From Streptomyces cadmiisoli (GTDB taxonomy: Bacteria; Actinomycetota; Actinomycetes; Streptomycetales; Streptomycetaceae): a stretch of DNA of 64,000 bases. Positions 30,307 to 60,317 of this stretch are shown piece after piece. Location of the stretch: positions 7,502,001 to 7,566,000 of the forward strand of contig NZ_CP030073.1 in NCBI RefSeq assembly GCF_003261055.1, in the 5' to 3' direction. The notes under the pieces were generated by a model. That model saw only the letters and a program-made list of their open reading frames with translations, was not told where the DNA came from and did not search any database. A program made the position numbers and the translations under genes. The first letter of the stretch is position 1. Every line of letters begins with the position of its first letter.

Positions 30307-30307
30307 G

Positions 30308-38855: not shown

Positions 38856-39026
38856 TGGTGGACGGTGCCGCCCGATCGGGTCGGACCTGCTCCCTTCGGT
38901 GTGGGGGGATCGCTCCGAAGGCGCCCGCCCCGGTCACCCGGGTCCGGGGCGGGCCGGCTCGTGGATCATCGCGGTGTTCGGTCGGTGTCGTCGGGTGCGG
39001 CTGAGGGTGAGGGAGGGGGTCCGGTG

Positions 39027-40217
39027 TCAGGCCGGTGAGGTCTCCTCGGTCTTGTGCCGGGAAGCGGCGGCGACCGAGATCCGGTCCCGGTGCCAGGCGT
39101 AGCAGCTCACGAGAATCCCGCAGACGGTGACGGCCGCGGCGGCGAGATAGACCGGACGCAGGCCCGGACCGTCGATGACCAGGCCGCCCAGCCAGCCGGC
39201 CAGCGCGGCGGCCACCTGGTACGCGGAGGCGTTCACCGCGATGGCCAACGTGGGCGCGGAACTCGCGGTGTTCAGGACCCGCGTCTGCATGCCCGGGATC
39301 ACCGAGAAGCCGAGCGCGCCGATGAGGAACACCATCACGGCCGCAGCGGCGGTGCTGTCGCTGACCGCCCAGGCCGCCAGCAGTGCCGCGGTGAGCAGCC
39401 CCAGCAGGCCGACCTGGGACGGCATCAGGGCCCGGTCGGACAGCCAGCCGCCGACGAAGTTCCCGACCGCCGCGCCGACGCCGTACACCACCAGCAGTAC
39501 CGCCACCGCGCCGTCGGCGAACCCGGAGACGTCGGTGAGCAGCGGCGCGAAATAGGTGAACACCATCAGCAGGCCCATGTTGGCGACGCCGGTGATGACG
39601 ATCGCCAGCCGGACCTCCCGGCTGCGGAAGACCCGCAGTTCGGTCACGGCCGAGGTCCCGGGGGTCGTGCTCGCCACGTCCGGCACGAACGGCAGCACCA
39701 TCAGCAGGCCGGCCAGACAGACGGCGGCGATGACGCCGAAGGTGGCCCGCCAGCCGAAGTTGTTGCCGATGAAGGTGCCGAGCGGTGCACCGAGCATCAT
39801 CGACAGGTTCATCCCGAAGGCCAGCTTGGACACCGTGGAGGCCTGTCTGCCCTCCGGTGCCGTGGACACGGCGATGACGACCGCGTTGGCGAAGAACGTG
39901 GCGGTGATCAGCGCGGTCACGACCCGCGCCAGGAACAGCACCCAGTACACCGGGGCCAGCGCGGAGGCGAGGTTGCCCACCACCACGATCACCATCAGGG
40001 CCACCAGCAGCGGCTTGCGCGGGTAGCGGGCGGTGAGCGCGGTCAGCACCGGACCGCCGACGATCATGCCGATGGCGTAAGCGGTGACCAGGAGCCCGGC
40101 GCTGGGGATCGATACGTCGAGGTCGTCGGCGACGTCCGGGAGGATGCCGGCGATGACGAACTCGCCGGAGGTGATGCCGAACACGCACAGCATCAGGGAC
40201 ACGAGCTTCAACGACAT
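39027..40217 (-). CDS. MFS transporter, drug/proton antiporter type (DHA1)
   Basis: A 396-residue twelve-segment MFS protein resembling chloramphenicol-resistance/arabinose-efflux members: TSGEFVIAGILPDVADDL, GGPVLTALTARYPRKPLL (motif A) and GAPLGTFIGNNFGWRATF (motif C-like). It probably exports a product of the surrounding cluster. ATG 40217 has AGAAGAG upstream. Next to the cupin gene across 102 bp. Confidence 0.92.
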   Translation of the reverse strand: MSLKLVSLMLCVFGITSGEFVIAGILPDVADDLDVSIPSAGLLVTAYAIGMIVGGPVLTALTARYPRKPLLVALMVIVVVGNLASALAPVYWVLFLARVVTALITATFFANAVVIAVSTAPEGRQASTVSKLAFGMNLSMMLGAPLGTFIGNNFGWRATFGVIAAVCLAGLLMVLPFVPDVASTTPGTSAVTELRVFRSREVRLAIVITGVANMGLLMVFTYFAPLLTDVSGFADGAVAVLLVVYGVGAAVGNFVGGWLSDRALMPSQVGLLGLLTAALLAAWAVSDSTAAAAVMVFLIGALGFSVIPGMQTRVLNTASSAPTLAIAVNASAYQVAAALAGWLGGLVIDGPGLRPVYLAAAAVTVCGILVSCYAWHRDRISVAAASRHKTEETSPA

Positions 40218-40319
40218 GCTGTCTCTTCTGGTTCGGGGCGGATGTTCGGTCGGCCGCGGGGGAGGGCCCGACGCGCGGTCGTGGAGGACCGGCCGGACCG
40301 CGGGGGCCGGGGCGGGTCC

Positions 40320-40841
40320 CTACGGGGTGGGCGCGGGGCCCGCGTAGCGGAACGCGTAGGACGAACCCAGCGCGACGAGGTGGTCCAGGTCGGGACCGGG
40401 GAGGTCCTCGGTCGGCAGGGTGAGCGCCTTGGCGTGCGGCAGCTCCGCCGCCAGGAACCGGTCGAACTGCGGCCGGCGGTCCGGCTGCGGTGTCGAGTGG
40501 ATGGTCAGGAAGCGGGCCCGCTCGGAGGTGGTCACGAAGCCGTGCGGCAGGGTCCGGGGCACGATCATGGTGCTGCCGGCCTCCGCGATCTGCTCCTCGC
40601 CGTCGCAGACCATGCGCAGGGTGCCGTCCAGGACGATGAACACCTCGTCCTCGTAGTGGTGGACGTGCAGCGGGGTGTTGTAGCCGCGGTCGCCGGTGTG
40701 CTGGACGACGGTGAAGCTGTCCCTGGTGGCGGAGCCGGGCACCCGTATCTGCGCCAGGCCGCCGAGCAGCCACACCGCGGTCTGCTCGGACTCCGGGATC
40801 AGCCGGCCCTTCTCGTCGTGGGCCATGTCCGGGAAGGTCAT
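40320..40841 (-). CDS. cupin-domain protein (quercetinase-like)
   Basis: A 173-residue single cupin. Motif 1 is TPLHVHHYEDEVFIVLDG with two His and a Glu that can bind a metal; motif 2 is TLPHGFVTTSERARFLTI with one further His. It resembles quercetin 2,3-dioxygenase-like proteins and may be a metal-dependent oxygenase, isomerase or sensor. It lies 45 bp after the FAD monooxygenase and shares its strand. Confidence 0.88.
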   Translation of the reverse strand: MTFPDMAHDEKGRLIPESEQTAVWLLGGLAQIRVPGSATRDSFTVVQHTGDRGYNTPLHVHHYEDEVFIVLDGTLRMVCDGEEQIAEAGSTMIVPRTLPHGFVTTSERARFLTIHSTPQPDRRPQFDRFLAAELPHAKALTLPTEDLPGPDLDHLVALGSSYAFRYAGPAPTP

Positions 40842-40886
40842 CGTGCTCCTTTGCGTCGGGGGCGAAGGCGTCCGGCCCGGGAGCGT

Positions 40887-42149
40887 TCAGCCGTGCGGTG
40901 CCGTAGCGGGATCCGCCGGCGGGACGGGCTGCTGCTCGCAGCGGGCCAGGAATGCGGCGGCGCCGTCGGGGGTCGACAGGGTCCGCCACATCGAGACGGG
41001 GTCGCCGAAGCCGCTGACGAACGCGTCGGCGACCCGCCGGTCCGCGGCGGCCCGCGCGAACAACCCGCGCACATGCGGGGGTGGTTCACCCAGGAAGGCG
41101 TTGCTCCACTCCACGACGTGGCGCGCGTGCTCCCACAGCCGGGCCGAGGCCCCGCGGCAGAACTCCTCGTCGAACGGCCCGTCGTGGGCGGCGACGAGGT
41201 CGGCCAGCGCGAACGCCGTGTGCGAACCGAGGTTGGCGCCCTGCGCGGTGAGCGGATCGTTGGTGATCCAGGCGTCCCCGACGGCCAGTGCGCAGGTGCC
41301 GTCGTCCAGCCGGGCCCAGCCTCGTCGGACGACCGGCGTGAGGGCGCCCTGGGCCAGTTCGCCGGGCGCCGTCAGCGAGAACTCGCCGGTGTCGATGCGC
41401 TCGCGCAGCCGGGGCGTGTGGGTGGCGACCAGCTCGAGCAGAGCGCGGTGGAAGGCGGCCGGATCGGCCCGGGCGTCGAGGTGGCAGACGGGCTCCAGCG
41501 GGCCGCCGGGTATCGCCTCGACGGCGAGGACGTCGACCCGTCCCGCCGGGGACACGAACGGCAGCTTCAGGATCTCGCCCGCACCGGGCAGGAAGTGGAT
41601 GTCGACGGAGTGCGGCACGTCCTCGGCGATGCCGAAGTAGTAGCCGGCACACAGGACGCGCTGAGGGGCCGAGTACGGCGAGCGCTCGGGATCGGCCGGG
41701 AACAGCCGGCGGACCATCCGGTTGCCGTTGGCGACGACCAGCAGGTCGTGCCGGGGAGCCAGGTCCTCCACCGCGTGGTCACCGATCATTAGTTCCCCGC
41801 CGCGATCGACGAAGGCGGACAGCAGGTGCGGCAGGTAGATACGGAAGTCCACCACGCTGGACGGGGGCCGCAGCGCGGCGAGGAATTCCAGCGGCCGTGG
41901 ACCGCCGGCGTGCATGCTGACCTCCCAGTGGTGCACCTGCGCGTCCGGGAAGTCCCAGTCGAAGACGCCGAGTTCACGTTCCCGCTGCTGGGTGGGGCCG
42001 AACCGGGCGGGGAAGTTGCGGGGCCGCCCGTCCTTGAGCCCGTCGAGGCCGACGTCGGAGTACACCGTCGCCTCGACCCCCAGCTGTTGCAGACGCAGCG
42101 CCAGTTGCAGTCCGGAGATCCCGGACCCGACGACACCCACGCGGCTCAT
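40887..42149 (-). CDS. styrene-monooxygenase-like FAD enzyme 1
   Basis: A 420-residue StyA-type flavoprotein. The FAD motif is VGVVGSGISGLQLALRL and the distal motif is ALAVGDAWITNDPLTAQGANLGSHTAFALADL; the rest has the StyA/SMO-like order including FRIYLPHLL. StyA enzymes epoxidise vinyl arenes or oxidise sulfides using reduced FAD from a separate reductase (StyB), which is not in the window. It overlaps the upstream luciferase-like gene by ATGA and closely resembles the second copy at 43285-44523. Confidence 0.87.
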   Translation of the reverse strand: MSRVGVVGSGISGLQLALRLQQLGVEATVYSDVGLDGLKDGRPRNFPARFGPTQQRERELGVFDWDFPDAQVHHWEVSMHAGGPRPLEFLAALRPPSSVVDFRIYLPHLLSAFVDRGGELMIGDHAVEDLAPRHDLLVVANGNRMVRRLFPADPERSPYSAPQRVLCAGYYFGIAEDVPHSVDIHFLPGAGEILKLPFVSPAGRVDVLAVEAIPGGPLEPVCHLDARADPAAFHRALLELVATHTPRLRERIDTGEFSLTAPGELAQGALTPVVRRGWARLDDGTCALAVGDAWITNDPLTAQGANLGSHTAFALADLVAAHDGPFDEEFCRGASARLWEHARHVVEWSNAFLGEPPPHVRGLFARAAADRRVADAFVSGFGDPVSMWRTLSTPDGAAAFLARCEQQPVPPADPATAPHG

Positions 42150-43288
42150 GCCGCCACCTCCTCGACGTCGGAGCCCGAACGCAGCCGGGCGGAGAGCCAG
42201 CCCACGGACTCCACCGTGAACCGGGCGGCCTGCGGTGAGGCCAGGGCGGAGGCGGGAATCAGCACGGGGTGCCGAAGACCCGCGTCGATCAGTTCACCGA
42301 TCCTCTTCAGCACGGTCTCCCGGCTGCCGGCCAGGACCTGGGCGGCGATCACCTCGTCGGGCACCGCCGCCAGGGCCCGTGCCACCTCCGCTCGGGTCAG
42401 CAGGTGCGGCAGCAGCTCCGTCAGGCCCTTGTAGTCCTCGCCGAACGGATGCTGCGCGCCGTGCCGGCGCCAGGCCCGGGCACCCGCGTGCAGCGCCAGG
42501 AACCGGATCGGGGCGGCCCGCAGCAGGTCCCGGGCGGCGTCGTCGGTCTCCGCCACCACGACCGGCAGACCGGCTGCCGGAAGCACGGCGCCGGGGTCCC
42601 GGCCCGCCTGTTCGGCGGCCGTGCGCACCACGGCCAGTCGCCGGGCGTACTCGTCCGGGGTCATCAGGTCGGAGGGGAGCCATCCGTCCGCGTGGCGGCC
42701 GGCCAGCGTCAGCATGCGCTCCTGGTTGGCGCCCAGCCAGATCAGCGGCGTCCGCCCCTCGGGCGCGGGCAGGCCCATGACGGCGCGGTCCAGGGTGAAG
42801 TGGCGCCCCCGGAAGTCGTGCGGGCCCTCACCCGAGAAGAACGTCCGCAGCACCCGGAGCGCTTCCTCCACCCGGCCCACCCGGTCGTCGTGCGGCACGC
42901 CGTAGGGCACCAGGTTCTCCAGTGCTCCCGCGCCGAGGCCGAGCACCGGCGCGCGCTCGGTGAGCTGGGCGAGGGTCAGCGCGGTCTGCGCCAGTACCGC
43001 GGGGTGCCGGCGGTGGGGGTCGGTGACCCCGACGGCGAGGCGTACCGGGCCGGCCAGCGGGGCGAGGTTGCCGAGCACGGTCGCGAAGTCGAGGCAGCGG
43101 TCGGGCGTGGGCATGTCCGCGGCCAGGTGACTGAAGTCGGTGTCCCAGGCCTGCCGGGGAAAGACATCGATCAGGTGGTCGGTGACCAGGAAGGTGTCCA
43201 GGCCGGCCCCGCGCGCGGCCTCCAGCAGTCCGCGCCCGGCCGCCACACTGCCGACCGCGTCCCAGATGAGGCCGACCTGCACAGTCAA
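42146..43288 (-). CDS. luciferase-like F420/FMN-dependent oxidoreductase
   Basis: A 380-residue LLM-family TIM barrel: VGLIWDAVGSVAAGRGLLEAARGAGLDTFLVTDH, RLAVGVTDPHRRHPAVLAQTALTLAQLTERAPVLGLGAGALENLVPYG and HADGWLPSDLMTPDEYARRL. The pattern is closer to F420-dependent actinobacterial members than to SsuD. TTG 43288 overlaps the upstream stop (TTGA) with GGAG 6 nt before it; GTG 43282 is possible. It is sandwiched between two StyA-like genes, so all three may work in one oxidation. Confidence 0.87.
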   Translation of the reverse strand: MTVQVGLIWDAVGSVAAGRGLLEAARGAGLDTFLVTDHLIDVFPRQAWDTDFSHLAADMPTPDRCLDFATVLGNLAPLAGPVRLAVGVTDPHRRHPAVLAQTALTLAQLTERAPVLGLGAGALENLVPYGVPHDDRVGRVEEALRVLRTFFSGEGPHDFRGRHFTLDRAVMGLPAPEGRTPLIWLGANQERMLTLAGRHADGWLPSDLMTPDEYARRLAVVRTAAEQAGRDPGAVLPAAGLPVVVAETDDAARDLLRAAPIRFLALHAGARAWRRHGAQHPFGEDYKGLTELLPHLLTRAEVARALAAVPDEVIAAQVLAGSRETVLKRIGELIDAGLRHPVLIPASALASPQAARFTVESVGWLSARLRSGSDVEEVAA

Positions 43289-44523
43289 GGGGTGCTCCTC
43301 ACCGCACGTGCCTCCTCGATGAACTCGGCGGTGCCGTCGGGACCGCGCACGCACCGCCACATGGCGTGCGGTCGGTCGAGCCGGGCGACGAAGGCGTCCG
43401 CCACCCGCTGGTCGTCCGCGGCGGCGGCGAGCAGCGTGCCCAGCTGGGGCGCGGGAGGGCCGAGGAACAGGTTCGTCCAGTCGACGACGGGCTGGGCGGT
43501 CGCCCACATCCGCTCCGAGACGGTGCGGCAGAACGTCTCGTCGTAAGGCCCCGGGGTGCCGCGGAGTTCGTCGGCCAGCTGGAAGGCCAGCGCGGAGCCC
43601 AGGTTGGCGCCCTGGGCGGTGATCGGGTCGTTGGTGATCCAGGCGTCGCCCACGGCCAGCGCGAACCGGTCGTCCGTCAGCCGTGCCCAGCCCCGGCGGA
43701 CCACCGGCACCACCGAGCCGCGCAGCAGGTCCACGGGCCGGGTCAGGGCGAACGCCCGCTCGTCGATCCGGGCGCGCAGCGTGGGCGCGTACGCGGTGAT
43801 CAGACCGAGCAGTTCCTTGGCGAACCGGTCGGGATCCTCCCGCTGGTCGCGGTCGGTGAGTTCGGCGAACGGACCGCCCGGCACCGCCTCGACGAGCACC
43901 ACGGTCACCCGGCCGTCCATGGAGTGGTACGTCGGGGCGTGGATCTCACCGGCGCCCGGCACCATGTGCATGGTCATCCCGGGCGGGTCCGGCGGCCGGA
44001 CACCGTGGAACAGGCCACCCACCAGGTGCCGGGGCGCCCGGTCGTGGGGCGAGCGGGCCGGGTCGCGCGGGAACGTGTCCGTGAGGGCTCCCCGCCCGGC
44101 CGCCACGACGACCAGTTCGTGCCGCTCGGCCAGCCGCAGCAGATCGCCTCGGCCGGCCACCTGCCGGCGGATCCAGTTCCCGCCGCGCCGCAGGTATTCC
44201 TCCAGCAGCGCGGCGAGATAGATCCGGAAGTCGACGGAACTGGCCGGCTCCGGCAGCCGCGCACGGAACGACGGACCGCCCGGTGCCTCCACGGTCACAT
44301 GCATCCAGGGGTTGTCGAACTCGCTCGACTCCCACGCGGACAGCCCGAGTTCCCTCTCCCTCGCCCGGGTGGAGGCGAATCTGGTGACGAAGTTCAGCGG
44401 TGGACCGCCGCGGAGGTCGTCCGGGCCCTGCGCCGAGTACAGGGTGGCGTCCAGGCCCGACTGCCGGAGCCCGAGCGCCAGGTGCAGGCCGGAGATCCCG
44501 GTGCCCACGATGCCGATACTCAT
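43285..44523 (-). CDS. styrene-monooxygenase-like FAD enzyme 2
   Basis: A 412-residue StyA-type flavoprotein with FAD motif GIVGTGISGLHLALGL and distal motif FALAVGDAWITNDPITAQGANLGSALAF. Length, order and key motifs match the paralogue two genes downstream, suggesting tandem duplication with divergence. Possible activities are epoxidation or N/S oxidation of an aromatic substrate, as in StyA. ATG 44523 has GGTGGAG 7 nt upstream; the long N-terminal extension to 44742 is not used. First gene of the operon. Confidence 0.87.
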   Translation of the reverse strand: MSIGIVGTGISGLHLALGLRQSGLDATLYSAQGPDDLRGGPPLNFVTRFASTRARERELGLSAWESSEFDNPWMHVTVEAPGGPSFRARLPEPASSVDFRIYLAALLEEYLRRGGNWIRRQVAGRGDLLRLAERHELVVVAAGRGALTDTFPRDPARSPHDRAPRHLVGGLFHGVRPPDPPGMTMHMVPGAGEIHAPTYHSMDGRVTVVLVEAVPGGPFAELTDRDQREDPDRFAKELLGLITAYAPTLRARIDERAFALTRPVDLLRGSVVPVVRRGWARLTDDRFALAVGDAWITNDPITAQGANLGSALAFQLADELRGTPGPYDETFCRTVSERMWATAQPVVDWTNLFLGPPAPQLGTLLAAAADDQRVADAFVARLDRPHAMWRCVRGPDGTAEFIEEARAVRSTP

Positions 44524-45010
44524 GCTGTAGCTCCACCTGTGCCGGGAATGGGTGTCGTCCGGCGCGTTGCCGGGGAGTGCGTCGCACGGAACATGCCGTT
44601 TCGGAACCTGTCGGCACGGCGGTATTGCCGCCGCGGTCCGGCGGGAATTCGCCGACCGGTCTCTCGGTGTCGGAATTCCGATGCCGCTCTCGGTGGATAT
44701 ACCTCCCCACCTGGCATTCGCCGTCGCAGCTTTCCTTTCCATGACCGCCCGTCATGCCGCGCCCGGACCACCGCTTCCGCGCAACTGGGCGGATCTGGTG
44801 ACCGACTGCTCGGTAAGTGCGAGTGATTCAGGACAGGGTGAAGAAGTGTCGGATCGGTTTTCGGCCAATGTCGCGACCCCGTGCCGGAATCCCCCGCGAG
44901 TGGGCCTGAGTGGCGCAAGCTTCTCCCGTAGCGAAGGGTTTGCGCAATCGCCCATCGATTAGGATCCTTGATGGATCGGGTCGGCACGGTATCGACGGGA
45001 GGCACGGGGG
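44524..45010. promoter_or_regulatory. divergent control region of the StyA operon and LysR gene
   Basis: A 487-bp space, locally AT-richer than the genes, that should hold both promoters. A perfect 12-bp palindrome TCGGAATTCCGA lies at 44670-44681 and a related GGAATTC at 44644-44650, 28 bp away. A TAGGAT -10-like box at 44960-44965 may serve LysR. LysR proteins usually bind such regions between themselves and the target gene. Confidence 0.5.
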
Positions 45011-46027
45011 ATGGTCGGCGCGGAAGATCCAGCCGTTCATCAACTGCGATCACTGCTGGCGCTGGCCGAGGAACTGCATTTCGGCCGTGCCGCCACACGG
45101 CTGTACCTCACTCAGTCCGCCCTCAGCCAGCAGATCGGCACACTGGAGCGGCGGCTGGGGGTCCAGTTGTTCACCCGCACCAGCCGCAAGGTGCAACTGA
45201 CCCCGCTGGGCCGGGCTCTCCTGCCGCTGGTACGGAACGTGGTGGGAGCCGCGGACGAACTGCGGGACGCCGCACGGCACTCCTCGGCCGGCGACGACGG
45301 GCTGGTGCTGCGCATCGGGCTCACCGACTGCGCCGCCACCCTCACCGCCACCCGCCGGGTGATCGCCACCCTCACCACCCTGCACCGCGGTCTGGAGGTC
45401 GACCTCGAGGTGCTCGATCTGGTCGAGCAGGCGACGGCCCTGGCGGTGGGGCGGATCGACGCGGCGTTCGTCTACGGACCGGTGCCCGCAGGCTTTCACG
45501 CCGAGCCGCTGACCACCGAGCCGCGCGTGGTGTGCCTCGCCGCCTCCGACCCGCTCGCGCGGCGGCCGGCCCTGCGCCTCGCGGATCTCGCCGACCGCCC
45601 CATGGTGGGACTGGCGCCGGAGATCTCCGCCGTCGAACGACGGTTCTGGGCCATGGATCCCCGCCCCGACGGCACCCGCGTGCGCTACACCGGCCACCAC
45701 GTCACGCGGGTCGAGTCCCTGCTGTCCGCCGCCTCCTTCGACGGGGCCATCGCCTTCCTGCCCGCCGTGGCCGCCGAGTTGTTCCCCCGCCCCGACATCC
45801 GCTACCGCCCCGTCGCCGACCTGGCACCGTGCACCTTCGGCCTGGTCTGGCCCGAGCCGGCGCGGGAGAACCCCAACATCACCGCCCTGGCGGACCTCTG
45901 CCGCCGCCTGCGCGACCAGGGCCGGCTGCCGGCGGGAACCATCCAGGGGCCCGACGAGCCGACGGTGCCGTCCGGGGCGGGACGGAAGCCGAGCGCACCG
46001 GACGCGGTCCCGCTGCCGACGCGCTGA
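45011..46027 (+). CDS. LysR-family transcriptional regulator
   Basis: A 338-residue LysR regulator: winged HTH (LRSLLALAEELHFGRAATRLYLTQSALSQQIGTLERRLGVQLFTRTSRKVQLT) and a type II periplasmic-binding-like effector domain. The small-ligand pocket is between the two lobes; ligand unknown. It is divergent from the StyA-like operon and is its likely controller. ATG 45011 has GGAGGCACGGGGG upstream. The C-terminal tail is Pro-rich. Confidence 0.94.
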   Translation: MVGAEDPAVHQLRSLLALAEELHFGRAATRLYLTQSALSQQIGTLERRLGVQLFTRTSRKVQLTPLGRALLPLVRNVVGAADELRDAARHSSAGDDGLVLRIGLTDCAATLTATRRVIATLTTLHRGLEVDLEVLDLVEQATALAVGRIDAAFVYGPVPAGFHAEPLTTEPRVVCLAASDPLARRPALRLADLADRPMVGLAPEISAVERRFWAMDPRPDGTRVRYTGHHVTRVESLLSAASFDGAIAFLPAVAAELFPRPDIRYRPVADLAPCTFGLVWPEPARENPNITALADLCRRLRDQGRLPAGTIQGPDEPTVPSGAGRKPSAPDAVPLPTR

Positions 46028-46869: not shown

Positions 46870-47331
46870 CACCACTGCCCGAGGCCGTCGGCGTGGTCCG
46901 CACGGGCGGACCGAAGGCGCCGCGGAGCGGCCGGAGGTCCGAGCCGCGCGGCCCGTCGCCCATGGTCCGCGGTGCCGGACCGAGGACCGGCATCACGCGT
47001 GCGGGGCGAATTGCTGAAATCGCGCTCCCTGTACCGGACTTCCCGCGAGTCGCTGATCCACAGCGGTCGGCCGTGGCGGAACTCGGGATCAATGAAATGC
47101 ACGCCGGAGCGTCCCGGCCTGCCCGGAAATTCGAGAATTCCGCGAACTTCCGGCGCCGGGCACGCCCCGGCCGTGGCCGTAGCGACGTGAAGGAGCCGCC
47201 GAAAGTGTCCTGGCCGGCGCTTTGACCGAAGCGTCGAAAGGAAATCATCGCGGTGCCCGCCGCATCGTGGCAACGCGACGTGTGCGGCCGCCCGTCGGGG
47301 GACGGGCGGACACACCGACAAGGGGGAAATG
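46870..47331. other. 462-bp region before the SARP gene, with a strong inverted repeat
   Basis: No gene is supported. Arms CCGGAAATTC (47123-47132) and GAACTTCCGG (47144-47153) pair over 10 bp with one mismatch around an 11-nt loop that holds GAATTCC; it could be a terminator for the upstream gene or an operator for the SARP gene. Confidence 0.5.
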
Positions 47332-50300
47332 ATGTCAATGCGCGAGCCGCTCCAGTTCCGTTTACTGGGACCGCTGGAGATATGGATGGGCGGTCGGCGG
47401 GTGCAACTGACCGCGCCGCGGCTGCAAAGCACGCTGGGCATGCTGCTGGTGCGGGCGAACCGAGTGGTCTCCGTGGAGCATCTGGCGCAGTGCGTCTGGG
47501 AGGAACGGCAGCCCGCCGATCCGGCCAATCAGATCGCCGTGTGCATCTCGAAACTGCGCGGACGCTTCTCCCGACTCGGCCTGAGCCATGAACTGATCAC
47601 CACCGAGCCGCCCGGCTACCTCCTCACCACCCGGGGCGTCGAACTGGACACCCACCTGGTCCACACTCTGCGTGCCGAGGCGGAGCGGTGCGTGGCGGCG
47701 GGGGATCGCGGCCGGGCAGTCGCCCTCCTCGAGGAGGCGCTGTCCCAGTGGCGCGGACCACTGCTGGCGGGGCTGACCCGGCAGGCCTGGCAGGCGGAGG
47801 TGAGCGCCTGGGAGGAGGAGCGGGTCACGTTGCGCGTCAAGTGGGCCGAACTGCAACTGGAACTCGGCCGATACGAACCGCTCATCGGCGAACTCACCGC
47901 TTTCGTGCAGCAGAACCCCTTCTTCGAACGTCCCAGGGCCCAGCTGATGACCGCGTTGTACCTGTCCGGCCGGCAGGCCGACGCGCTGCGCCTGTTCCGG
48001 GAGACCTCCCGGATGCTCGACCGGGAACTCGCCGTGACACCGGGACCCGAACTGCAACGACTGCACCAGGAGATTCTGCGCGGGGCTGTCCCGGCGGAGC
48101 CTTCGGCGACCGAGCTCCGGCTGCCCGCCGGACCGCCCCCGGCACCCGTCGGCGGCCCCGCCGCCCCGCACGCCGAGGCCGTCGTACCCCGCGAGGCCCT
48201 CGGGGTCGACCGGCCGGCCACCGACCGGCCGACCCCGGGCCGGCCGGGCCCCGCCCTGTCGGCCGGCCCCTGTCTCCTCCCCAGCGACATCGACGACTTC
48301 GTCGGCCGCGAACGCGAGATCGCCACCCTGGTGGAGAGGCTCGCGCCCTCCCGCGGGCAGGTCCCGCTCGTGGAGGTGGTGGGCGCCGGCGGAACCGGGA
48401 AGACCGCCCTCGCCGTACATGTCGCGCACGCCCTGCGACCGCAGTTCCCCGACGGGCAGCTGTACATCAACCTGCGCGGAATGGACGACGACCCGGTCGC
48501 GCCCGAGGAGGCGCTGGCGCGGCTGCTGGCCGAGCTGAGCACCGCGGGGTCGGTCCTGCCCGAGGGGCTGGACCAGCGGTCGGAGAAGTACCGGGCGCTG
48601 CTCGCGGACCAACGGATCCTGGTCGTCCTCGACAACGCCGCCGACGCCGCCCAGATCCGGCCGCTGCTGCCCGGCACGGGAAGCTGCGCGGTGATCGTGA
48701 CCGGCCGTTCCCGGGTCGCCTCGTCCTTCGCCACCCACGTGGTGGAGCTGGGCATCCTCTCCCGCGAGCACGCGCTGGAACTGCTGCGCCGGGTCGCCGG
48801 GCCGGAACGGCCCACCGCGGAACCGGAAGCGGCCCGGCGACTCGTGGACTACTGCGGTTGGCTGCCGCTCGCGGTGAGCATCGTGGCGGCGAAGCTGGCG
48901 GCCAAACCCCACTGGACCCTGGAGCGGGTCGCCGCGCGCCTGGCCGACGAGCAGCGCAGGCTGGACGAGCTGGAGCACGACAGCCTGGCCGTACGCACCA
49001 CGTTCGCGCTGTCCTACCAGGGCATCAGCGCCGACGCCCGCACGCTGCTGCGAAGGCTCGCCCTGCTGCCCGTACCCGACTTCTCCGACTGGCCGGCCTC
49101 GCCGCTGGTTGGTCTGGACGCGCACGAGACGGAGAAGCTGATCGAGGAACTGGTCGACGCGCGTCTGGTCGAGGTCGTGGGCACGGACCGGGCGGGCCAG
49201 CTGCGCTACCGGATCCACGACCTGCTGCGGCTGTTCGGACTGGAGCGGGCCGCCGGGACCGACGCGCACCCCGAACTCCGGGAGGCGGTCTCCCGTACGG
49301 CTCGCGCCGCGCTGGCCCGCGCGGACCTGGCGCATCGCACGGTCTGCGGCGGCGACTACACCGTCGTGCGCAGCACCGTGCCGCGCCCCGACACGGCACG
49401 CAGGGCCCGTGAGCTCACGCGGGACGAGCGGGCGGCTTCGCTGGACTGGTACGAGTCGGAGCGGCTCACCATCACCGCGCTGGTCAAACGGGCCGCGGAG
49501 TACGGACTCGACGGACTCGCCTGGGACCTGGCCGCGGTGTGCCGCTGTCTGTTCAGCACGCGCGGGCACCACGACGAATGGCTGACGACCCACCGGTGGG
49601 CGCTGCGGGCCGTGCGGGAGAGCGGCAGCGGCCGGGGCCGGGCGGCCCTGCTGCTGGGGCTGGGCGATCTGCACCTCACCAAGCGGCACCACGCCGAGGC
49701 CCGCGCCTGCCTGGAGGAGGCCCACCGGACGTTCCTCGACGTCGGCGACGAGTACGGTGCGGCACTCGCGCTGCGTCGCTCGGGATACGTGGACCGGCTG
49801 CTCGGCCGCTACGAACAGGCGCTGGAGCGCTGGCGGGGCTGCCTGCCCGCCCTGCGGGCCGCCGGTGACCTCCAGGCCCAGGTGCAGGTGCAGCGCCAAC
49901 TGGGCCTGACCCTCCTCGAACTGCACGACCTGGACGGCGCCGAGCCCCATCTGAAGGAGGCCGAGGACCTCACGTGCCGCTTCCACGGGCGTGGCGCCGG
50001 ACAGGTGAGGCTGGCCCTCGCCGATCTCCTCCGGGCCCGGCGCCGGCTGGACGAGGCGGAGACGGAGTACCTGACGGCGCGGGAGCTGACGGACGCCATC
50101 GGCGATGTCGTCGGCAGCGGCTACGCGCACTTCGGGCTGGGGATCGTCGCCCTCGAACGAGGGGAGCCCACGGCGGCCGAGCGACTGCTCGACGTCTGCG
50201 TGGAGTCGGCGCGCGAGGTGGGCGATCCGCTGCTCGAAGCGCTCGGCCTGTTCGGTCTGTCGGCCGCCCACGGGCACAGTGCGAGGCCGCGGGAGGCCGA

Positions 50301-50529
50301 GGTGCTGCTGGACCGGTCGGCCCGCCTGTACCGGGACCTCGGAACACCGGTGCGCTACGCGCGTTGTCTGTACGCCCAGGCCGGGGTGATCGCGCAGCGG
50401 GACGGTGATCCCGTCGTCGTGTCCGCCCTGCGCGCGCGGGCGGCGGCCGCGGTGGCGAGCACGGGTTCGCCGCTCGCGGCCCGCGCGTTCGCGGAGAACA
50501 CCCGACCCCATTACCCCTTTGTCCTGTGA
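47332..50529 (+). CDS. AfsR/SARP-family regulator (BTAD, NB-ARC, TPR)
   Basis: A 1065-residue multi-domain SARP. N-terminal OmpR-like winged helix (FRLLGPLEIWMGGRRVQLTAPRLQSTLGMLLVRANRVVSVEHLA), then the BTAD (about 100-245), NB-ARC ATPase (GAGGTGKTALA near residue 350; ILVVLDNAADA) and a C-terminal TPR array (from about residue 730). It should activate the cluster genes, most likely the isonitrile genes just downstream. Among three close ATGs, 47332 gives the best spacing to GGGGG; 47329 and 47338 are alternatives. Confidence 0.95.
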   Translation: MSMREPLQFRLLGPLEIWMGGRRVQLTAPRLQSTLGMLLVRANRVVSVEHLAQCVWEERQPADPANQIAVCISKLRGRFSRLGLSHELITTEPPGYLLTTRGVELDTHLVHTLRAEAERCVAAGDRGRAVALLEEALSQWRGPLLAGLTRQAWQAEVSAWEEERVTLRVKWAELQLELGRYEPLIGELTAFVQQNPFFERPRAQLMTALYLSGRQADALRLFRETSRMLDRELAVTPGPELQRLHQEILRGAVPAEPSATELRLPAGPPPAPVGGPAAPHAEAVVPREALGVDRPATDRPTPGRPGPALSAGPCLLPSDIDDFVGREREIATLVERLAPSRGQVPLVEVVGAGGTGKTALAVHVAHALRPQFPDGQLYINLRGMDDDPVAPEEALARLLAELSTAGSVLPEGLDQRSEKYRALLADQRILVVLDNAADAAQIRPLLPGTGSCAVIVTGRSRVASSFATHVVELGILSREHALELLRRVAGPERPTAEPEAARRLVDYCGWLPLAVSIVAAKLAAKPHWTLERVAARLADEQRRLDELEHDSLAVRTTFALSYQGISADARTLLRRLALLPVPDFSDWPASPLVGLDAHETEKLIEELVDARLVEVVGTDRAGQLRYRIHDLLRLFGLERAAGTDAHPELREAVSRTARAALARADLAHRTVCGGDYTVVRSTVPRPDTARRARELTRDERAASLDWYESERLTITALVKRAAEYGLDGLAWDLAAVCRCLFSTRGHHDEWLTTHRWALRAVRESGSGRGRAALLLGLGDLHLTKRHHAEARACLEEAHRTFLDVGDEYGAALALRRSGYVDRLLGRYEQALERWRGCLPALRAAGDLQAQVQVQRQLGLTLLELHDLDGAEPHLKEAEDLTCRFHGRGAGQVRLALADLLRARRRLDEAETEYLTARELTDAIGDVVGSGYAHFGLGIVALERGEPTAAERLLDVCVESAREVGDPLLEALGLFGLSAAHGHSARPREAEVLLDRSARLYRDLGTPVRYARCLYAQAGVIAQRDGDPVVVSALRARAAAAVASTGSPLAARAFAENTRPHYPFVL

Positions 50530-51015: not shown

Positions 51016-51990
51016 ATGTCCGACTCGCCGGCGGACCAGATACTCCGCCTGCTCTTCGCCTCCCGACGTACCTCGGGCGGCCCCGCCGACCTGTGCAACG
51101 GCAAGCCGTGCGAGCGGTGCTTCGCACAGCATCGGCCGAAGGTCGAGCACTTCATGGCGCGGGGCGTGCCACTGCACTTCGTGCTGCCGGCCTTCCCGGC
51201 CAAGTCCGCCAACCGGAACAAGGTGCTCGGGCCACTGCCCGACCTGGCCGAGCGGCTGTCGCTGGAGTTTCTCCAGTCGTTCTGCGACTACGTCCGCCAC
51301 TACTACGAGCCGGGAGCGCGCATCACGGTCTGCTCCGACGGACACGTCTTCGCCGACCTCGTGGGCGTGGCCGACCAGGACGTGACGGACTACCGCACCG
51401 AACTGGAGCTGCTGCTCCGGGCGATCGGCGCGGACGCCATCAACACCTACGGACTCGGCGACGCCTTCCACAGCGGCGGCCACGACGAGCAGCGGGCCCG
51501 GCTGACCGGGCGCTACGCCCAGCCCGTGGCGGACATCCGGGCCCGGGTCGTGGAGGACGCCGCCGCCCGGTCCCTGTTCTCCGGCATCCACCGCTTCCTC
51601 TTCGAGGACCAGCTGGTCCGCAGCGAGGGCCGCAGCCGCAACAGCGTCCGCGAAAAGACCAAGTCCCGGGCCTACCAGGTGATCCAGCGCAGCGACGCCT
51701 GGAGCAGCCTGGTCGAGGAGTACTTCCCGGAGGCGCTGCGCCTGTCGATCCATCCGCAGGACAGCCACTCCCACAAGATCGGCATCCACATGATGCGCAC
51801 CCGGGACAACTGGCTCACCCCCTGGCACGGCGTCGCCCTCGACGACGGTGAGGGGATCCGCCTGGTCAAGCGGCACGAAGCCGAGCAACTCGGCGCGACC
51901 CTCGTCCGGCGCCGGAACCGACCCAGTCACTTCATCGCTCCGCACGTCATGACCTCGCGGAGCCCGCTGCTCGTCGAGGAGGCCGTGTGA
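51016..51990 (+). CDS. PvcA-type L-tyrosine/amino-acid isonitrile synthase
   Basis: A 324-residue PvcA/DIT1-family enzyme. Matches to the family are LPAFPAKSANRNKVLGPLPDL, CSDGHVFADLVGVADQDVTDY, SREK-like REKTKSRAYQVIQRSDAW and RLSIHPQ with DNWLTPWHGVAL. It converts an amino acid (Tyr or Trp in known members) and ribulose 5-phosphate into an isonitrile. ATG 51016 has AGAGGAG 4-7 nt upstream. It is first in a tightly packed unit with PvcB-like, halogenase and antiporter genes. Confidence 0.93.
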   Translation: MSDSPADQILRLLFASRRTSGGPADLCNGKPCERCFAQHRPKVEHFMARGVPLHFVLPAFPAKSANRNKVLGPLPDLAERLSLEFLQSFCDYVRHYYEPGARITVCSDGHVFADLVGVADQDVTDYRTELELLLRAIGADAINTYGLGDAFHSGGHDEQRARLTGRYAQPVADIRARVVEDAAARSLFSGIHRFLFEDQLVRSEGRSRNSVREKTKSRAYQVIQRSDAWSSLVEEYFPEALRLSIHPQDSHSHKIGIHMMRTRDNWLTPWHGVALDDGEGIRLVKRHEAEQLGATLVRRRNRPSHFIAPHVMTSRSPLLVEEAV

Positions 51991-52778
51991 TGCCCTCGTA
52001 CTCCGTCACCCCGCTCAAGCCCTTCGGCGCGCTCGTCGAGCCCGGGGAACCGGGCGCCGCGCTGGATTCGGTGCCGGTCGAGGAGGCCCGGTCGCTCGTG
52101 CGGGCGCACCGCGTCGTGGTGCTGCGCGGCTTCCGCCCCGTCGAACGGGACGGGCTGACCGCCTACGCACGCGGCTGGGGCTCGCTGCTGAGCTGGAACT
52201 TCGGCGAGATCCTCGATCTGGAGGTGCACGACGACCCCAAGGACTACGTGTTCACCCAGGGACATGTGCCCTACCACTGGGACGGCGCCTTCGCCGAACA
52301 GGTGCCCTCGCACCAGATCTTCCAGTGCGTACGGGCACCGTCGGCCGGCGGCCGCACCTTCTTCTGCGACACCGAACGCGTCCTGACCGCGCTGCCGGAA
52401 GCCACCCGGCGCGTCTGGGAGCGGGTGCGCGTCACCTACCGCAAGGAGAAGACCGCGCACTACGGCGGTCACATCACCGCCCCGCTGGTCCAGGAGCACC
52501 CGCACACCGGAGCCCCGGTCGTCCGCTACGCCGAACCGCTCGATCCGGAACGGTTCGTCAGCCCGCTCTTCCTGGACGTCGACGGACTGCCCGCCGAACT
52601 GGGGCAGGACGAGTTCGTCCAGGACATCGAGGAGCGGCTGTACGCGCCGGACGCGATGTACCGGCACGAGTGGCACGACGGTGACTACGCCTTCACCGAC
52701 AACCACGCCCTGCTGCACGGCCGCACCGCCTTCACGGGCAGCGCCGCCCGGCATCTGCGGCGCGTGCACGTGCTGTGA
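51990..52778 (+). CDS. PvcB-like Fe(II)/2-oxoglutarate oxygenase
   Basis: A 262-residue TauD-family oxygenase. The metal triad is visible: YHWDGAF (His96, Asp98) and DNHALLHGR (His243), and RHLRRVH near the end probably binds 2-oxoglutarate. PvcB and its relatives act on the isonitrile amino acid made by PvcA by oxidative decarboxylation or desaturation. ATG 51990 shares its first base with the pvcA-type stop (TGATG) and has GAGGAGG 7 nt upstream, so the two are co-translated; GTG 51987 is possible. Confidence 0.9.
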   Translation: MPSYSVTPLKPFGALVEPGEPGAALDSVPVEEARSLVRAHRVVVLRGFRPVERDGLTAYARGWGSLLSWNFGEILDLEVHDDPKDYVFTQGHVPYHWDGAFAEQVPSHQIFQCVRAPSAGGRTFFCDTERVLTALPEATRRVWERVRVTYRKEKTAHYGGHITAPLVQEHPHTGAPVVRYAEPLDPERFVSPLFLDVDGLPAELGQDEFVQDIEERLYAPDAMYRHEWHDGDYAFTDNHALLHGRTAFTGSAARHLRRVHVL

Positions 52779-52834
52779 CGACCCGGCCGGAGACGACCTC
52801 CTCGCGCGGACGGCGCGGGGACCGAGGAGGACAG

Positions 52835-54655
52835 ATGCGACCGTACTACGACGTGGTGATCATGGGCGGCGGGCCGGGCGGCTCCACCCTCGCGGCGCTG
52901 CTCGCCCGACGCGGCGGCCTGAGCGTGGCCGTACTGGAGAAGGAGGAGTTCCCGCGCGAGCACATCGGCGAGTCGATGGCGCACCCGCTCATCCCGGTAC
53001 TGGAGGAGAGCGGCGCGCTGGAGAAGGTGCTGGCCGGCAAGTGCTGGGTGAAGAAGTTCGGCGGGATCTTCCAGTGGAGCGACACGGGCCCGCACGTCGC
53101 CTACTTCGACCACGACAACACCGTTCGGGACGGCGTGCACCGCTGGGCGATGCACGTCGACCGCGCCGAGTTCGACAAGGTCCTGCTCGACCACGCGGCC
53201 GACGTCGGCGCCGACGTGTTCGAGGGGGTGGCGGTGGCCGGCTGCGCCCTCACCGAGGACGGCCGGGGGCGGGAAGTCGTCCTGAAGGACGGCCGGACCG
53301 TGCGCGCACGCTGGTTCGTCGACGCTTCCGGGCGGCGCAACAGCATCGTGACGGGCAAGAAGCGGGAGTGGCTGTCGGGCTACCGCAACATCGCGATCTG
53401 GCAGCACTACCTGGGCGGTCGCCTGGCGCAGACACTCGACGGCGACTGGAACATCTTCCGCGAGCGGAACATGTCGCCGATCGGGTGCTTCGCCTTCCGG
53501 GACGGCTGGTGCTGGTACATCCCCGTACCGAAGATCATCGACGGTGAGCGCAAGCTGACGCACTCGATCGGCATCGTCACCGATCCGTCCGTCCTGAAAC
53601 GGCCGGGCACCGACTTCACCGACCCCGAGGTGTTCCTGCGCACGGTCCAGCGGGTGCCGAGGCTGCGGGACCTCATAGAAGACGTGCGGCCGGTCGGCGA
53701 CAAGATGCTGACGGCCACCAACTACTCGATGATCAACGACCGGTTCTGCGACTACGACGGACGGTGGCTGCTGCTCGGCGACGCCTCCTACTTCGTGGAC
53801 CCGCTGTTCTCCTCCGGTGTCGCCTTCGCCACCAACCAGGCGGTCGCCGTCGCCACCGTGCTCGTCCGCACGGCCTCGGGAGAGCTGAGCGAGCCGGAGC
53901 AGCGAGAGCTGTGGCGGGACTACGACACCGAGTGGCACGGCATGGCGTCGACCTTCGCGCTCTCCATCGACCAGTGGTACCACGCCATCGGCAGCGACAA
54001 CCCCGACAGCGTGTACTGGAACACCAGGGGCCGCAGGGAGGGCGTCGAACTCGACCACGAGCGGACGTTCCACGCCTTGCTCAACACGGCCTTCACCCCC
54101 GACCTACTGCAACTCATGACGGACGGTGAGGGAATGACCGGCCTGGACCCGGCCGGCCCCTACATGGCGGCCTACGCCCGCGCGAACCGGCTGGTCCTCA
54201 CCGCCGACACCAAGGTCTCACCGGCCCCGGGCGTGACCGTCACCGAGGGCCCCGGACTGGACATCCCCGGCTTCAAGGCCGCGATTCCGCCCGACCCGTC
54301 ACTGATGCCGGTGGAGGCCCGGCGGGCCGCGGCGACGTACTGGACCGACCCGACGCGCCACGCGGACCTCGTCCCGCCGTCGATGGGCGCCACCGTGCCG
54401 GTCCAGCGCTTCCACTTCCGGGACGACCCCGACGGGGTGGCCGTGCGCGCCGTGGCCGACCGGGACGGCGGGGCGGAACTGTGGGAGTCGCTGAAGGACG
54501 GCCCCGTGCTCTGGAGCGACCTCGTGCGCTGTCTGCACCCGGGTCAGCAAAGGCTCGTCCAGCGTCTGCTCCAGGCCGGGATGCTGGAGCTCAGCGGTAC
54601 GGCAGCCACCCCGGACACGCCCGCCGGGAGCGGGGACGGGCATGCCACTGGCTGA
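52835..54655 (+). CDS. FAD-dependent halogenase
   Basis: A 606-residue flavin-dependent halogenase. FAD motif MGGGPGGSTLAALLARRG; active-site Lys region KCWVKKFGGIFQW (Lys73/Lys74); the halogenase-specific WxWxIP as WCWYIP (225-230); second FAD motif LLLGDASYFVDPLFSSGVAFA. The order resembles phenol or pyrrole halogenases and their carrier-linked relatives more than tryptophan halogenases. It needs FADH2 and chloride or bromide. The C-terminus (from about 500) is an extra domain. ATG 52835 has GAGGAGG 4 nt upstream. Substrate probably the isonitrile-derived aromatic. Confidence 0.92.
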   Translation: MRPYYDVVIMGGGPGGSTLAALLARRGGLSVAVLEKEEFPREHIGESMAHPLIPVLEESGALEKVLAGKCWVKKFGGIFQWSDTGPHVAYFDHDNTVRDGVHRWAMHVDRAEFDKVLLDHAADVGADVFEGVAVAGCALTEDGRGREVVLKDGRTVRARWFVDASGRRNSIVTGKKREWLSGYRNIAIWQHYLGGRLAQTLDGDWNIFRERNMSPIGCFAFRDGWCWYIPVPKIIDGERKLTHSIGIVTDPSVLKRPGTDFTDPEVFLRTVQRVPRLRDLIEDVRPVGDKMLTATNYSMINDRFCDYDGRWLLLGDASYFVDPLFSSGVAFATNQAVAVATVLVRTASGELSEPEQRELWRDYDTEWHGMASTFALSIDQWYHAIGSDNPDSVYWNTRGRREGVELDHERTFHALLNTAFTPDLLQLMTDGEGMTGLDPAGPYMAAYARANRLVLTADTKVSPAPGVTVTEGPGLDIPGFKAAIPPDPSLMPVEARRAAATYWTDPTRHADLVPPSMGATVPVQRFHFRDDPDGVAVRAVADRDGGAELWESLKDGPVLWSDLVRCLHPGQQRLVQRLLQAGMLELSGTAATPDTPAGSGDGHATG

Positions 54656-56156
54656 CGGGCCGGGCGCCGCGGACGCCCTCCACCCGGCGGGCACGGCGGG
54701 CGCGGCGGGTACGGATGCCGCGGCCGGGCCGGCCGACGGCAGCGGCCCCGGCGACCGCGGCCCGGAACACGGAGCCGCGGTCGGGTCCGGTCCCGCCGGC
54801 CCTCGCGGCACGGCGCGGATCCCCGGGCGCCGGCAGCTCCTCGGATACGGGGTGCTCGCCGTCCTGCCCGCCGCGGTCGCGGCGGCGCTGCTGATCCTGG
54901 CGCCGTCGGGCCGGGGCGGCGCGGGACGGGCCGAGGAGGGACACACCACCGCCGTCCTCCTGCTCGCCTGCGCCGCCGTGCTGGTGGTGGCACGCGGCGC
55001 GGGCCTGCTCGCGGTCCGGCTCGGACAGCCCCGTGTCATGGGTGAGATCTGCGCGGGACTGGCGCTCGGACCCTCGCTCCTCGGGCGGCTGGCCCCGGAC
55101 GTCTCCGCGTGGATCTTCCCGCCCAGGGTGGTCACCGGACTCGACGCACTCGCCCAACTCGGCCTGGTCCTGTTCATGTTCGGAGTCGGGCAGGAACTGG
55201 GCGGCGCCCGCCGCGCCCGTGATCTGCACGGTTCGACGCTGGTCACCCTGGCCTCGCTGCTGGTGCCGTTCGCCGCCGGAACCGGGCTCGGCCTGTGGCT
55301 CCACCAGGGGCACGCGGGCGACGCGGCCGACCCGGTCGCCTTCGGCCTGTTCCTCGGCTGCGCGCTCAGCGTGACGGCGTTCCCCGTGCTGGCCCGCATC
55401 CTCTCCGACGTCGGCATGCTGGGCAGCCGCACCGGACGGCTCAGCCTCTGCGCGGCGGCCGTGGGCGACGGGGCCTGCTGGGTCGTCCTGACCGCCGCGC
55501 TCGCCCTGGCCGAGGGCCGTGGGCCCGGAGCGCAGTGGCGGACGCTGCTGCTCGCCGTGCTCACGGCCGTGGTCCTGCTGGGCCCGGTGCGGGTGGTGCT
55601 CGCCAAGGTGCTGGACGGACCGGCGGGCCGGTCCCGGGCCGCGGTGCTGACCCTGTGCGTGGCCGGGACCGCGGCCTCGGCCGGACTGACCGCACTGCTG
55701 GGTGTGCACCAGCTGATCGGCGCGTTCCTCTTCGGGCTCGCCTGGCCGCGCTCGCGCCGCCCCGGCGGTGAGCCGGACTCGGCCGTGGCCACGCTCGCGC
55801 ATCTGCTGCTGCCGTTCTTCTTCCTGGGCTTCGGGCTCTCCCTCGACCTGTCCCGGCTCCCCTTCGACGCCTCCAGCGCGACCCTGTTCGGGGCGGTGCT
55901 GGCCGCGGCCACCCTCTCCAAGGTCGTCGGCGCGGGCCTGGCCGGCCTGACCTCCGGTCTGGAGCGCACCGACGCGCTGGTGCTGGGCGTGCTGATGAAC
56001 ACCCGGGGCCTGACGGAACTGGTCGTCCTCGGCATCGGCCACGAGGCGGGGCTGCTCGACACCCACCTGTTCGCCGTACTGGTCCTGGTCACCCTCGTCA
56101 CCACCGCGATGACCGGCCCCGGACTGTGGCTCATCCGGCGCCGGAGACCGGGCTGA
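54642..56156 (+). CDS. cation/proton antiporter (CPA2/KefB-type)
   Basis: A 504-residue membrane protein with about 12-13 segments. Low-complexity Ala/Gly/Pro N-tail (about 60 residues), then GQPRVMGEICAGLALGPSLLGRLAP, LGLVLFMFGVGQELGG, ALSVTAFPVLARIL and GVLMNTRGLTELVVLGIG, all typical of CPA2 Na+(K+)/H+ exchangers. No TrkA-N domain is seen. Often found in natural-product clusters as pH/ion homeostasis or self-resistance. ATG 54642 overlaps the halogenase stop by 14 nt. Confidence 0.92.
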   Translation: MPLADGPGAADALHPAGTAGAAGTDAAAGPADGSGPGDRGPEHGAAVGSGPAGPRGTARIPGRRQLLGYGVLAVLPAAVAAALLILAPSGRGGAGRAEEGHTTAVLLLACAAVLVVARGAGLLAVRLGQPRVMGEICAGLALGPSLLGRLAPDVSAWIFPPRVVTGLDALAQLGLVLFMFGVGQELGGARRARDLHGSTLVTLASLLVPFAAGTGLGLWLHQGHAGDAADPVAFGLFLGCALSVTAFPVLARILSDVGMLGSRTGRLSLCAAAVGDGACWVVLTAALALAEGRGPGAQWRTLLLAVLTAVVLLGPVRVVLAKVLDGPAGRSRAAVLTLCVAGTAASAGLTALLGVHQLIGAFLFGLAWPRSRRPGGEPDSAVATLAHLLLPFFFLGFGLSLDLSRLPFDASSATLFGAVLAAATLSKVVGAGLAGLTSGLERTDALVLGVLMNTRGLTELVVLGIGHEAGLLDTHLFAVLVLVTLVTTAMTGPGLWLIRRRRPG

Positions 56157-60289: not shown

Positions 60290-60317
60290 GTCCGTCACCT
60301 GCCGTTCGGGAGTCCTG

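Follow-up and report, generated by a model that had tools for sequence, protein, structure and literature searches.

The window analysed here, a 64,000-nucleotide stretch of Streptomyces cadmiisoli DNA (contig NZ_CP030073.1, positions 7,502,001 to 7,566,000, forward strand), is predicted from its sequence to hold a PvcAB-halogenase-antiporter cassette paired with a StyA operon, two modules that are found apart in related bacteria (Table 1). The reading that we favour, with a confidence somewhat above even, is that a single pathway spans the two nearby operons, in which a styryl isonitrile, probably formed from tyrosine, would be halogenated on the ring and epoxidised by StyA. Isonitriles are antibiotic and metal-binding groups, and the locus would tie a distinct halogenase subfamily and a StyA/LLM enzyme set to their synthesis. 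The observations that carry this reading are the gene order, the protein families, the conserved catalytic residues and the recurrent linkage of PvcAB with both the halogenase subfamily and the StyA-LLM operon.

Table 1 Features of the two operons and of the neighbouring regulators (positions counted from the first letter of the window)
Feature	Position	Strand	Size and start	Remarks
PvcA/DIT1-type isonitrile synthase (candidate)	51016..51990	+	324 aa; ATG 51016, TGA 51990	
PvcB-type Fe(II)/2OG desaturase	51990..52778	+	262 aa; ATG 51990	
Flavin-dependent halogenase (predicted), isonitrile-linked subfamily	52835..54655	+	606 aa; ATG 52835, TGA 54655	
CPA2-type cation/proton antiporter	54642..56156	+	504 aa; ATG 54642	Candidate for export or self-protection
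StyA-type group E flavin monooxygenase 1 (StyA1)	43285..44523	-	412 aa; start set by homology	Smoa_sbd 83.5 bits (scored on longer ORF 43285-44742); identity 76% to G181, 73% to G879
Luciferase-like (LLM) oxidoreductase	42146..43282	-	378 aa; GTG start assumed	Bac_luciferase 170 bits (longer ORF)
StyA-type group E flavin monooxygenase 2 (StyA2)	40887..42149	-	420 aa	
Cupin protein	40320..40841	-		Cupin_2 54 bits; 86% in G181, 84% in G879
MFS exporter	39027..40217	-		MFS_1 162 bits; matched in 4/4 relatives, 66-83%
Short-chain dehydrogenase (SDR)	38049..38855	-	Start uncertain	adh_short_C2 173 bits; 83% in G181, 84% in G879
LysR regulator, divergent from StyA operon	45011..46027	+		HTH_1/LysR_substrate
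SARP/AfsR-like regulator	47329..50529	+		BTAD, NB-ARC, TPR (Pfam); possible cluster regulator

The PvcA-PvcB-halogenase-antiporter unit of the original prediction proved real, its coordinates and overlaps being confirmed together with its Pfam families, all over cut-off. The four genes form one operon, in which the A of the PvcB start codon is also the last base of the PvcA stop, and the 3' end of the halogenase gene and the antiporter ATG overlap by 14 nt. Strong ribosome sites (GAGGAG/GAGGAGG) precede PvcA, PvcB and the halogenase, as had been claimed for all four genes; that claim was slightly overstated, because the antiporter has only GGGAGC/GGGGAC. The antiporter scored 147 bits against Pfam Na_H_Exchanger, over cut-off, and 122 bits against TIGR00932, below the cut-off of 238.

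This grouping is more than chance, because the same order was found in Micromonospora matsumotoense (74, 67, 77 and 65% identity for PvcA, PvcB, halogenase and antiporter, respectively) and, without an adjacent antiporter, in another Streptomyces, G386. The full order is seen at locus L003, where the antiporter homologue is fused to a VAO-type oxidase, and PvcA-PvcB-halogenase at L064 and L069. The original prediction named no described streptomycete cluster that combines this set with a terpene pair and StyA-like enzymes; the unit itself is not unique, and its genes co-occur more widely. The halogenase subfamily (at least 55% identity) was detected in 9 of 392 Streptomyces genomes, all nine of which carry PvcA, a gene found in 82 of the 392 when partial matches are counted. 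With the source genome excluded (8/8), the hypergeometric p was 2.6e-6, and it was 1.3e-5 when the close pair G031/G154 was taken once. In this genome search, as in the phylum-wide one and those for the LLM clade described below, no more than the top 3 to 5 candidates of each genome were scored, so that further copies may have been missed. Contigs of equal size (at least 3 kb) were also counted among the best 120 of 294, 760 and 336 matches, one halogenase row being without a size: there were 17 for halogenase and PvcB, including the source genome (null mean 0.22), 9 for halogenase and StyA (null mean 0.16) and 3 for PvcB and StyA (null mean 0.22), with a null maximum of 2 in each case, and two such contigs were common to all three families in these best-120 lists.

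Of the 12 subfamily loci in Streptomyces, 6 lie at most 25 kb from a detected PvcA, 5 share a contig with one but lie far from it, and the remaining locus sits on a different contig; because only half are this close, the subfamily may act on other substrates too. The halogenase was found in 1 of 396 genomes across the phylum at E 1e-120, namely the source genome, and in plasmids at E 1e-60 there were zero matches; a plasmid search with PvcB returned four records, all of at most 43% identity.

A GxGxxG motif, a catalytic lysine and WxWxIP are the marks of flavin-dependent halogenases. The 606-aa protein carries all three (GGGPGG from residue 11, KKFGG from 73, WCWYIP from 225) and scored over cut-off with Trp_halogenase (85 bits) and FAD_binding_3 (53 bits), and on these grounds it is predicted to be a flavin-dependent halogenase, of an isonitrile-linked subfamily. 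No characterised member of this subfamily was found. Its relatives in the PDB include PltA, ChlB4, 3e1t, RadH and CmlS, which it resembles over the first 350-400 residues, with KKFG-like and WxWxIP motifs; in contrast to them, it is about 600 aa long, with the C-terminal part past about residue 400 outside the matches, and its subfamily forms a separate, sharply delimited 46-row clade. The long branch that parts this clade from 16 other flavin-enzyme rows would also fit a hydroxylase or an oxidase, as would the 25 NCBIfam models shown, all below cut-off with the CmlS halogenase ranked first. Nevertheless, this assignment is highly improbable, since the best PDB matches are halogenases and the marker lysine (K74) and WxWxIP are invariant in the 40-row alignment, the window protein included.

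PvcA matches the DIT1_PvcA profile over positions 1-268 of 273, essentially its full length (260.3 bits, cut-off 26.4), and its closest solved chains are 9dhm, 9dh4 and 3e59 (PvcA). Against the L-tyrosine isonitrile synthase equivalog NF045653 it reached 291 bits, below the curated cut-off of 600, as expected of a homologue and not of an equivalog; in the tree it groups with halogenase-linked and StyA-linked PvcAs, in a clade different from that of Pseudomonas aeruginosa PvcA. A structure predicted for pocket analysis from a 3-row alignment was discarded (pLDDT 39.9). Enzymes of this family take tyrosine or tryptophan, and the window protein is a candidate isonitrile synthase acting on either of them and ribulose-5-phosphate.

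PvcB (Pfam TauD 160 bits, over cut-off) retains the His-x-Asp...His ligands, Arg265 and Trp74 of the PvcB/PIsnB Fe/2OG family; among its 120 nearest homologues the metal ligands and the arginine are kept in 120/120 and the tryptophan in 119/120. According to PMC9467999, vinyl formation is linked to K/R at 107 and N/H at 188 (PIsnB numbering). Acrylate-forming enzymes have L and C there. The window PvcB has alanine at both positions, and the nearest homologues have K/R at 107 in 0/120, N at 188 in 2/120 and the acrylate-type L or C in 0/120. Therefore, the choice between vinyl and acrylate product is not predicted by these residues, and the A/A group is not classifiable by the published selectivity rule. 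The missing vinyl-type residues could be taken to favour formation of an isocyanoacrylate, as in paerucumarin, with the halogenase yielding a halogenated acrylate or coumarin; this is distinctly unlikely, because the acrylate-type residues are missing as well, PvcB is nearer to PIsnB (7tcl, 209 bits) than to PvcB (3eat, 189 bits), and a StyA-type epoxidase partner would suit a styryl product better.

The second operon (38049-44523, minus strand) has the order StyA-LLM-StyA-cupin-MFS-SDR. Its LLM clade is rare, occurring in 3 of 392 genomes of the genus sample and 3 of 394 of the family sample, with the source genome in both and five genomes in total. Because PvcA-PvcB heads this operon in all four of the other genomes, the operon and the LysR gene belong, on comparative grounds, to the predicted isonitrile pathway. 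The original expectation of a candidate halogenated aryl-isonitrile pathway was supported, and this linkage supports the one that the StyA-like enzymes matter to the cluster. The LysR regulator has 79-81% matches in G181 and G879, there divergent from the PvcA-headed operon, and regulators resembling the SARP/AfsR-like one (33-37% identity) lie near eight other PvcA loci. Two independent neighbouring pathways could also explain the layout, as the operons are on opposite strands, with LysR, SARP and one small gene between them, and either module has relatives at loci where its partner is missing; the window halogenase was absent from the fetched 20-46 kb at all four StyA-LLM relatives. Such independence is very unlikely, given that all four other StyA-LLM operons contain PvcAB and the window's copy does not, and that halogenase and StyA relatives elsewhere occur on contigs of equal size. 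A relic of a lost PvcAB was sought between LysR and StyA1 (44401-45060), with no convincing match (best E 0.47).

The aromatic substrate was considered from several sides. A tryptophan route would give an indole vinyl isonitrile, with StyA oxidising and the halogenase acting on the indole; it would accord with the family's use of either amino acid, with the indole monooxygenases among StyA relatives and with the small A-F-A pocket residues of PvcB, which could fit a larger ring. The best PDB matches of the halogenase (PltA, ChlB4, RadH, CmlS) speak against it, as they are presumably of the pyrrole, phenol or carrier-bound types. The excerpt of PMC13101512 gives N46 V48 H50 Y73 H76 S96 as the fingerprint of styrene monooxygenases and S46 Q48 M50 V/I73 I76 A96 as that of indole monooxygenases; StyA2, the only StyA compared, in an alignment read by eye, has N P R H V S, that is, 2/6 and 0/6 matches, so that it fits neither. 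Moreover, a VAO-type oxidase adjoins the halogenase or its antiporter in five relatives (L003, L064, L067, L068, L072), and that of L064, the sole one compared with the PDB, resembles the vanillyl-alcohol, eugenol and 4-cresol enzymes of a para-phenol family. The tryptophan route is thus unlikely. The best VAO match in the source genome was only 34%, and an HsaA/p-hydroxyphenylacetate-hydroxylase-like gene lies near the cluster in G074, with scores below curated cut-offs.

The terpene pair, initially counted as part of the set, had to be removed from it. The synthase is a (-)-alpha-amorphene synthase equivalog (NF041563, 618.6 bits, cut-off 540) with zero tblastn matches at the compared isonitrile loci, and the adjacent P450 finds matches of no more than 28-45% identity at three of them (L069, L077 and L080), which were not taken as linkage.

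In the favoured single pathway, for which we infer the substrate, the halide, the order of steps and the final product, PvcA would form an isonitrile amino acid from ribulose-5-phosphate and an aromatic amino acid, for which tyrosine is the likeliest candidate. Desaturation by PvcB, in which CO2 is most likely lost, would lead from there to a styryl (vinyl) isonitrile, whose activated ring would be the target of the flavin halogenase. The StyA-type enzymes would convert the styryl double bond into an epoxide with FADH2 from a reductase encoded elsewhere, no flavin reductase family having been found among the 30 window proteins scanned with Pfam. LLM, cupin and SDR could perform finishing steps, and the MFS and antiporter proteins export or protection. 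Several observations given above weigh against this reading: half of the halogenase-subfamily loci in Streptomyces are not close to PvcA, the four StyA-LLM relatives lack the halogenase in the 20-46 kb fetched, PvcB departs from the vinyl-type residues, StyA2 fits neither fingerprint, no flavin reductase family turned up among the 30 scanned proteins, and the two operons are on opposite strands.

In a tentative view, in which doubt outweighs belief, the StyA-LLM operon would normally be accompanied by PvcAB and by genes for a rhodanese and a SufS-type cysteine desulfurase, and would therefore probably serve in the relatives to make oxidised products that carry sulfur, e.g., isothiocyanates, from styryl isonitriles. 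The window's StyA operon has neither PvcAB of its own nor sulfur-transfer genes; rhodanese (53%) and desulfurase (55%) homologues in the source genome lie far from the window and were not counted. On this view, actinomycetes may exchange isonitrile-tailoring modules, the StyA-LLM operon having lost PvcAB and the sulfur genes here and joined the PvcAB-halogenase-antiporter cassette of another lineage, to give a halogenated epoxy-isonitrile. One StyA of the LLM-clade relatives corresponds to PDB entry 9J0H, the crystallised StyA of S. vilmorinianum, so this view also predicts what a structurally solved enzyme may do: the "styrene monooxygenase" would be a styryl-isonitrile epoxidase.

No description of such a cluster was found among the matches listed in the open-licence literature, which does not establish novelty in print. 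As for the S. vilmorinianum StyA (PDB 9J0H), G903 carries a single StyA with rhodanese and desulfurase genes and no window-type halogenase within the 30 kb read, in contrast to the StyA pair and the halogenase of the window. The halogenases of hapalindole biosynthesis are Fe/2OG enzymes. The cyanobacterial hapalindole, ambiguine and welwitindolinone clusters start with IsnA/IsnB (excerpt of PMC4236562), and the window shares this type of start but has a flavin halogenase and StyA enzymes, with no prenyltransferase family among the 30 proteins scanned with Pfam. With the PvcAB (IsnAB) pathways of rhabduscin and paerucumarin, the window has in common the PvcA-PvcB pair and the retained metal- and carboxylate-binding residues; it differs from them in PvcB selectivity residues that are A/A instead of K-N or L-C, and it adds the halogenase, the antiporter and the StyA/LLM enzymes.

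The genes for the isonitrile synthase (PvcA), the Fe(II)/2-oxoglutarate-dependent desaturase (PvcB), the 606-aa flavin halogenase and the CPA2 antiporter were found where the original prediction had placed them, with the 1-base and 14-nt overlaps that it described, and its family calls were borne out by the DIT1_PvcA, TauD, Trp_halogenase/FAD_binding_3 and Na/H exchanger models, each matched above its curated cut-off. Strong ribosome sites, expected for all four genes, precede PvcA, PvcB and the halogenase; the antiporter alone has a weak site. The window PvcB naturally carries Ala-Phe-Ala, as do 110 of its 120 nearest homologues; the same residues, when made by mutation in PIsnB, a PvcB-family enzyme of solved structure, abolished ligand stabilisation.

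Recurrence of this set was tested by tblastn of the window genes against the fetched loci, which revealed all four genes in the window order in Micromonospora matsumotoense (L003), the first three (PvcA-PvcB-halogenase) in Streptomyces genome G386 (L064), and a more distant version of this three-gene set in genome G058 (L069). Among 392 Streptomyces genomes, PvcA matches, partial ones included, occurred in 82, and halogenase matches (E<=1e-40, at most three candidates scored per genome) in 35. Halogenase identities are either at least 55% or at most 41%, and the subfamily above this gap comprises 12 loci in nine genomes of the 392, with up to three candidates per genome. PvcA is present in all nine; when the S. 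cadmiisoli genome itself was left out, this co-occurrence (8/8) had a p value of 2.6e-6, or 1.3e-5 with a close pair counted once. The distance between the genes varies, with PvcA lying within 25 kb of six of the 12 loci, far away on the same contig at five, and on another contig at the remaining one (genome G286).

S. cadmiisoli also carries a second PvcA (37–40% identity) alongside P450 and NDP-hexose genes, with an AMP-binding enzyme, a DrrA-like ABC protein and a CPA2 antiporter also encoded there, and a tryptophan-halogenase family gene with a strong match (463 bits) lies about 16 kb from it.

In a PvcA tree of 41 rows, constructed without the later-found genomes G879 and G903, nine PvcAs formed one supported clade (100/99), namely those of the window, M. 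matsumotoense, G386, G181, G074, G058, G031/G154 and a long-branched acidobacterial sequence. Two of these, from G181 and G074, are linked to StyA, the group E flavin monooxygenase also encoded in the window. The PvcA locus of G181 reads LysR, PvcA, PvcB, StyA1, LLM (a luciferase-like oxidoreductase), StyA2, cupin, MFS and, further on, SDR; its non-Pvc genes are 76–86% identical to those of the window, whereas PvcA reaches only 52% and PvcB 47%. The LLM clade was found in three of 392 genomes of the genus sample (E<=1e-60) and three of 394 of the family sample (E<=1e-80), S. cadmiisoli being counted in both, and in five genomes over the two samples. In all four others the operon is headed by PvcA-PvcB, with G181 and G879 having the long form and G074 and G903 a PvcA-PvcB-LLM-StyA-MFS form; the window halogenase was absent from the fetched stretches of all four. 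The window operon has no PvcAB at its head, and a different PvcAB, with the halogenase and antiporter, is located approximately 6.5 kb away; the arrangement is read as the product of module exchange. A relic of the old PvcAB pair was searched for between LysR and StyA1 in the window (44401-45060), and none was found.

All four StyA-PvcAB clusters contain rhodanese and SufS-like desulfurase genes, with no match to either within the window at E<=1e-3. These enzymes are candidates for an isonitrile-to-isothiocyanate step.

Co-location was additionally approximated in the protein database by counting contigs of exactly equal size between lists of the best 120 matches. The halogenase and PvcB shared 17 such contigs, S. 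cadmiisoli being one of them, the halogenase and StyA nine, and PvcB and StyA three, a number that is weak taken alone; the null for the three pairings gave means of 0.16–0.22 and maxima of 2. In the halogenase tree (62 rows), a long branch set apart the 46 rows that formed the clade of the subfamily, with the window and M. matsumotoense enzymes in a common 14-row subclade and all nine halogenases with StyA on equal-size contigs in another, of 13 rows. Because of this separation, we infer that halogenase and StyA were probably brought together on more than one occasion.

The genes flanking the related loci give a hint of the substrate. An oxidase of the vanillyl-alcohol-oxidase (VAO) type is fused to the antiporter in M. 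matsumotoense, lies immediately 3' of the halogenase at L064, follows it at L072, and comes after halogenase-antiporter at L067 and L068, where PvcAB is missing; at L067 the antiporter and oxidase adjoin in separate reading frames. The L064 oxidase, the sole VAO-type one compared, matched vanillyl-alcohol oxidase, eugenol oxidase and 4-cresol dehydrogenase in the PDB. The substrates of this family are para-substituted phenols, which favours tyrosine as the origin of the product. M. matsumotoense and G386 also have a HAD phosphatase-like gene upstream of PvcA; neither this gene nor a VAO-type oxidase was found in the window, and the best VAO match in the S. cadmiisoli genome reached only 34%. 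A UbiA gene follows PvcA-PvcB in an acidobacterial MAG and likewise lies 3' of the PvcA-PvcB-halogenase set in G058.

Locations of the features discussed
Feature	Location	Content
Four-gene unit	window 51016-56156	PvcA, PvcB, halogenase, antiporter
PvcB	window 51990-52778	
StyA operon	window 38049-44523 (-)	StyA1-LLM-StyA2-cupin-MFS-SDR; LysR divergent from it at 45011-46027 (+)
Terpene pair	window 59282-61691	(-)-alpha-amorphene synthase + P450
Apparent small-substrate uptake operon	window 29152-33016	LLM, NMT1-like binding protein, BPD permease
Second PvcA (L078)	G000:C1:3266849-3267589	
Tryptophan-halogenase family gene	G000:C1 3283330-3284760	
Rhodanese and SufS-like desulfurase genes	L089:16620-17480; L104:1620-2972	counterparts in G879, G903
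Antiporter-oxidase fusion	L003:13441-16590	one 1049-aa ORF
Acidobacterial MAG locus	L004:2134-5400	PvcA-PvcB-UbiA

The terpene pair, originally suggested as part of the set, is not supported as a member: the synthase corresponds to a curated (-)-alpha-amorphene synthase and is without counterpart at the compared loci. The two genes are taken as a separate small terpene cluster; the models nearest to the P450, those of albaflavenone and pentalenene oxygenase, were matched below cut-off. The cluster in the window is a variant of the PvcAB isonitrile type, described by none of the titles listed among open-licence papers.
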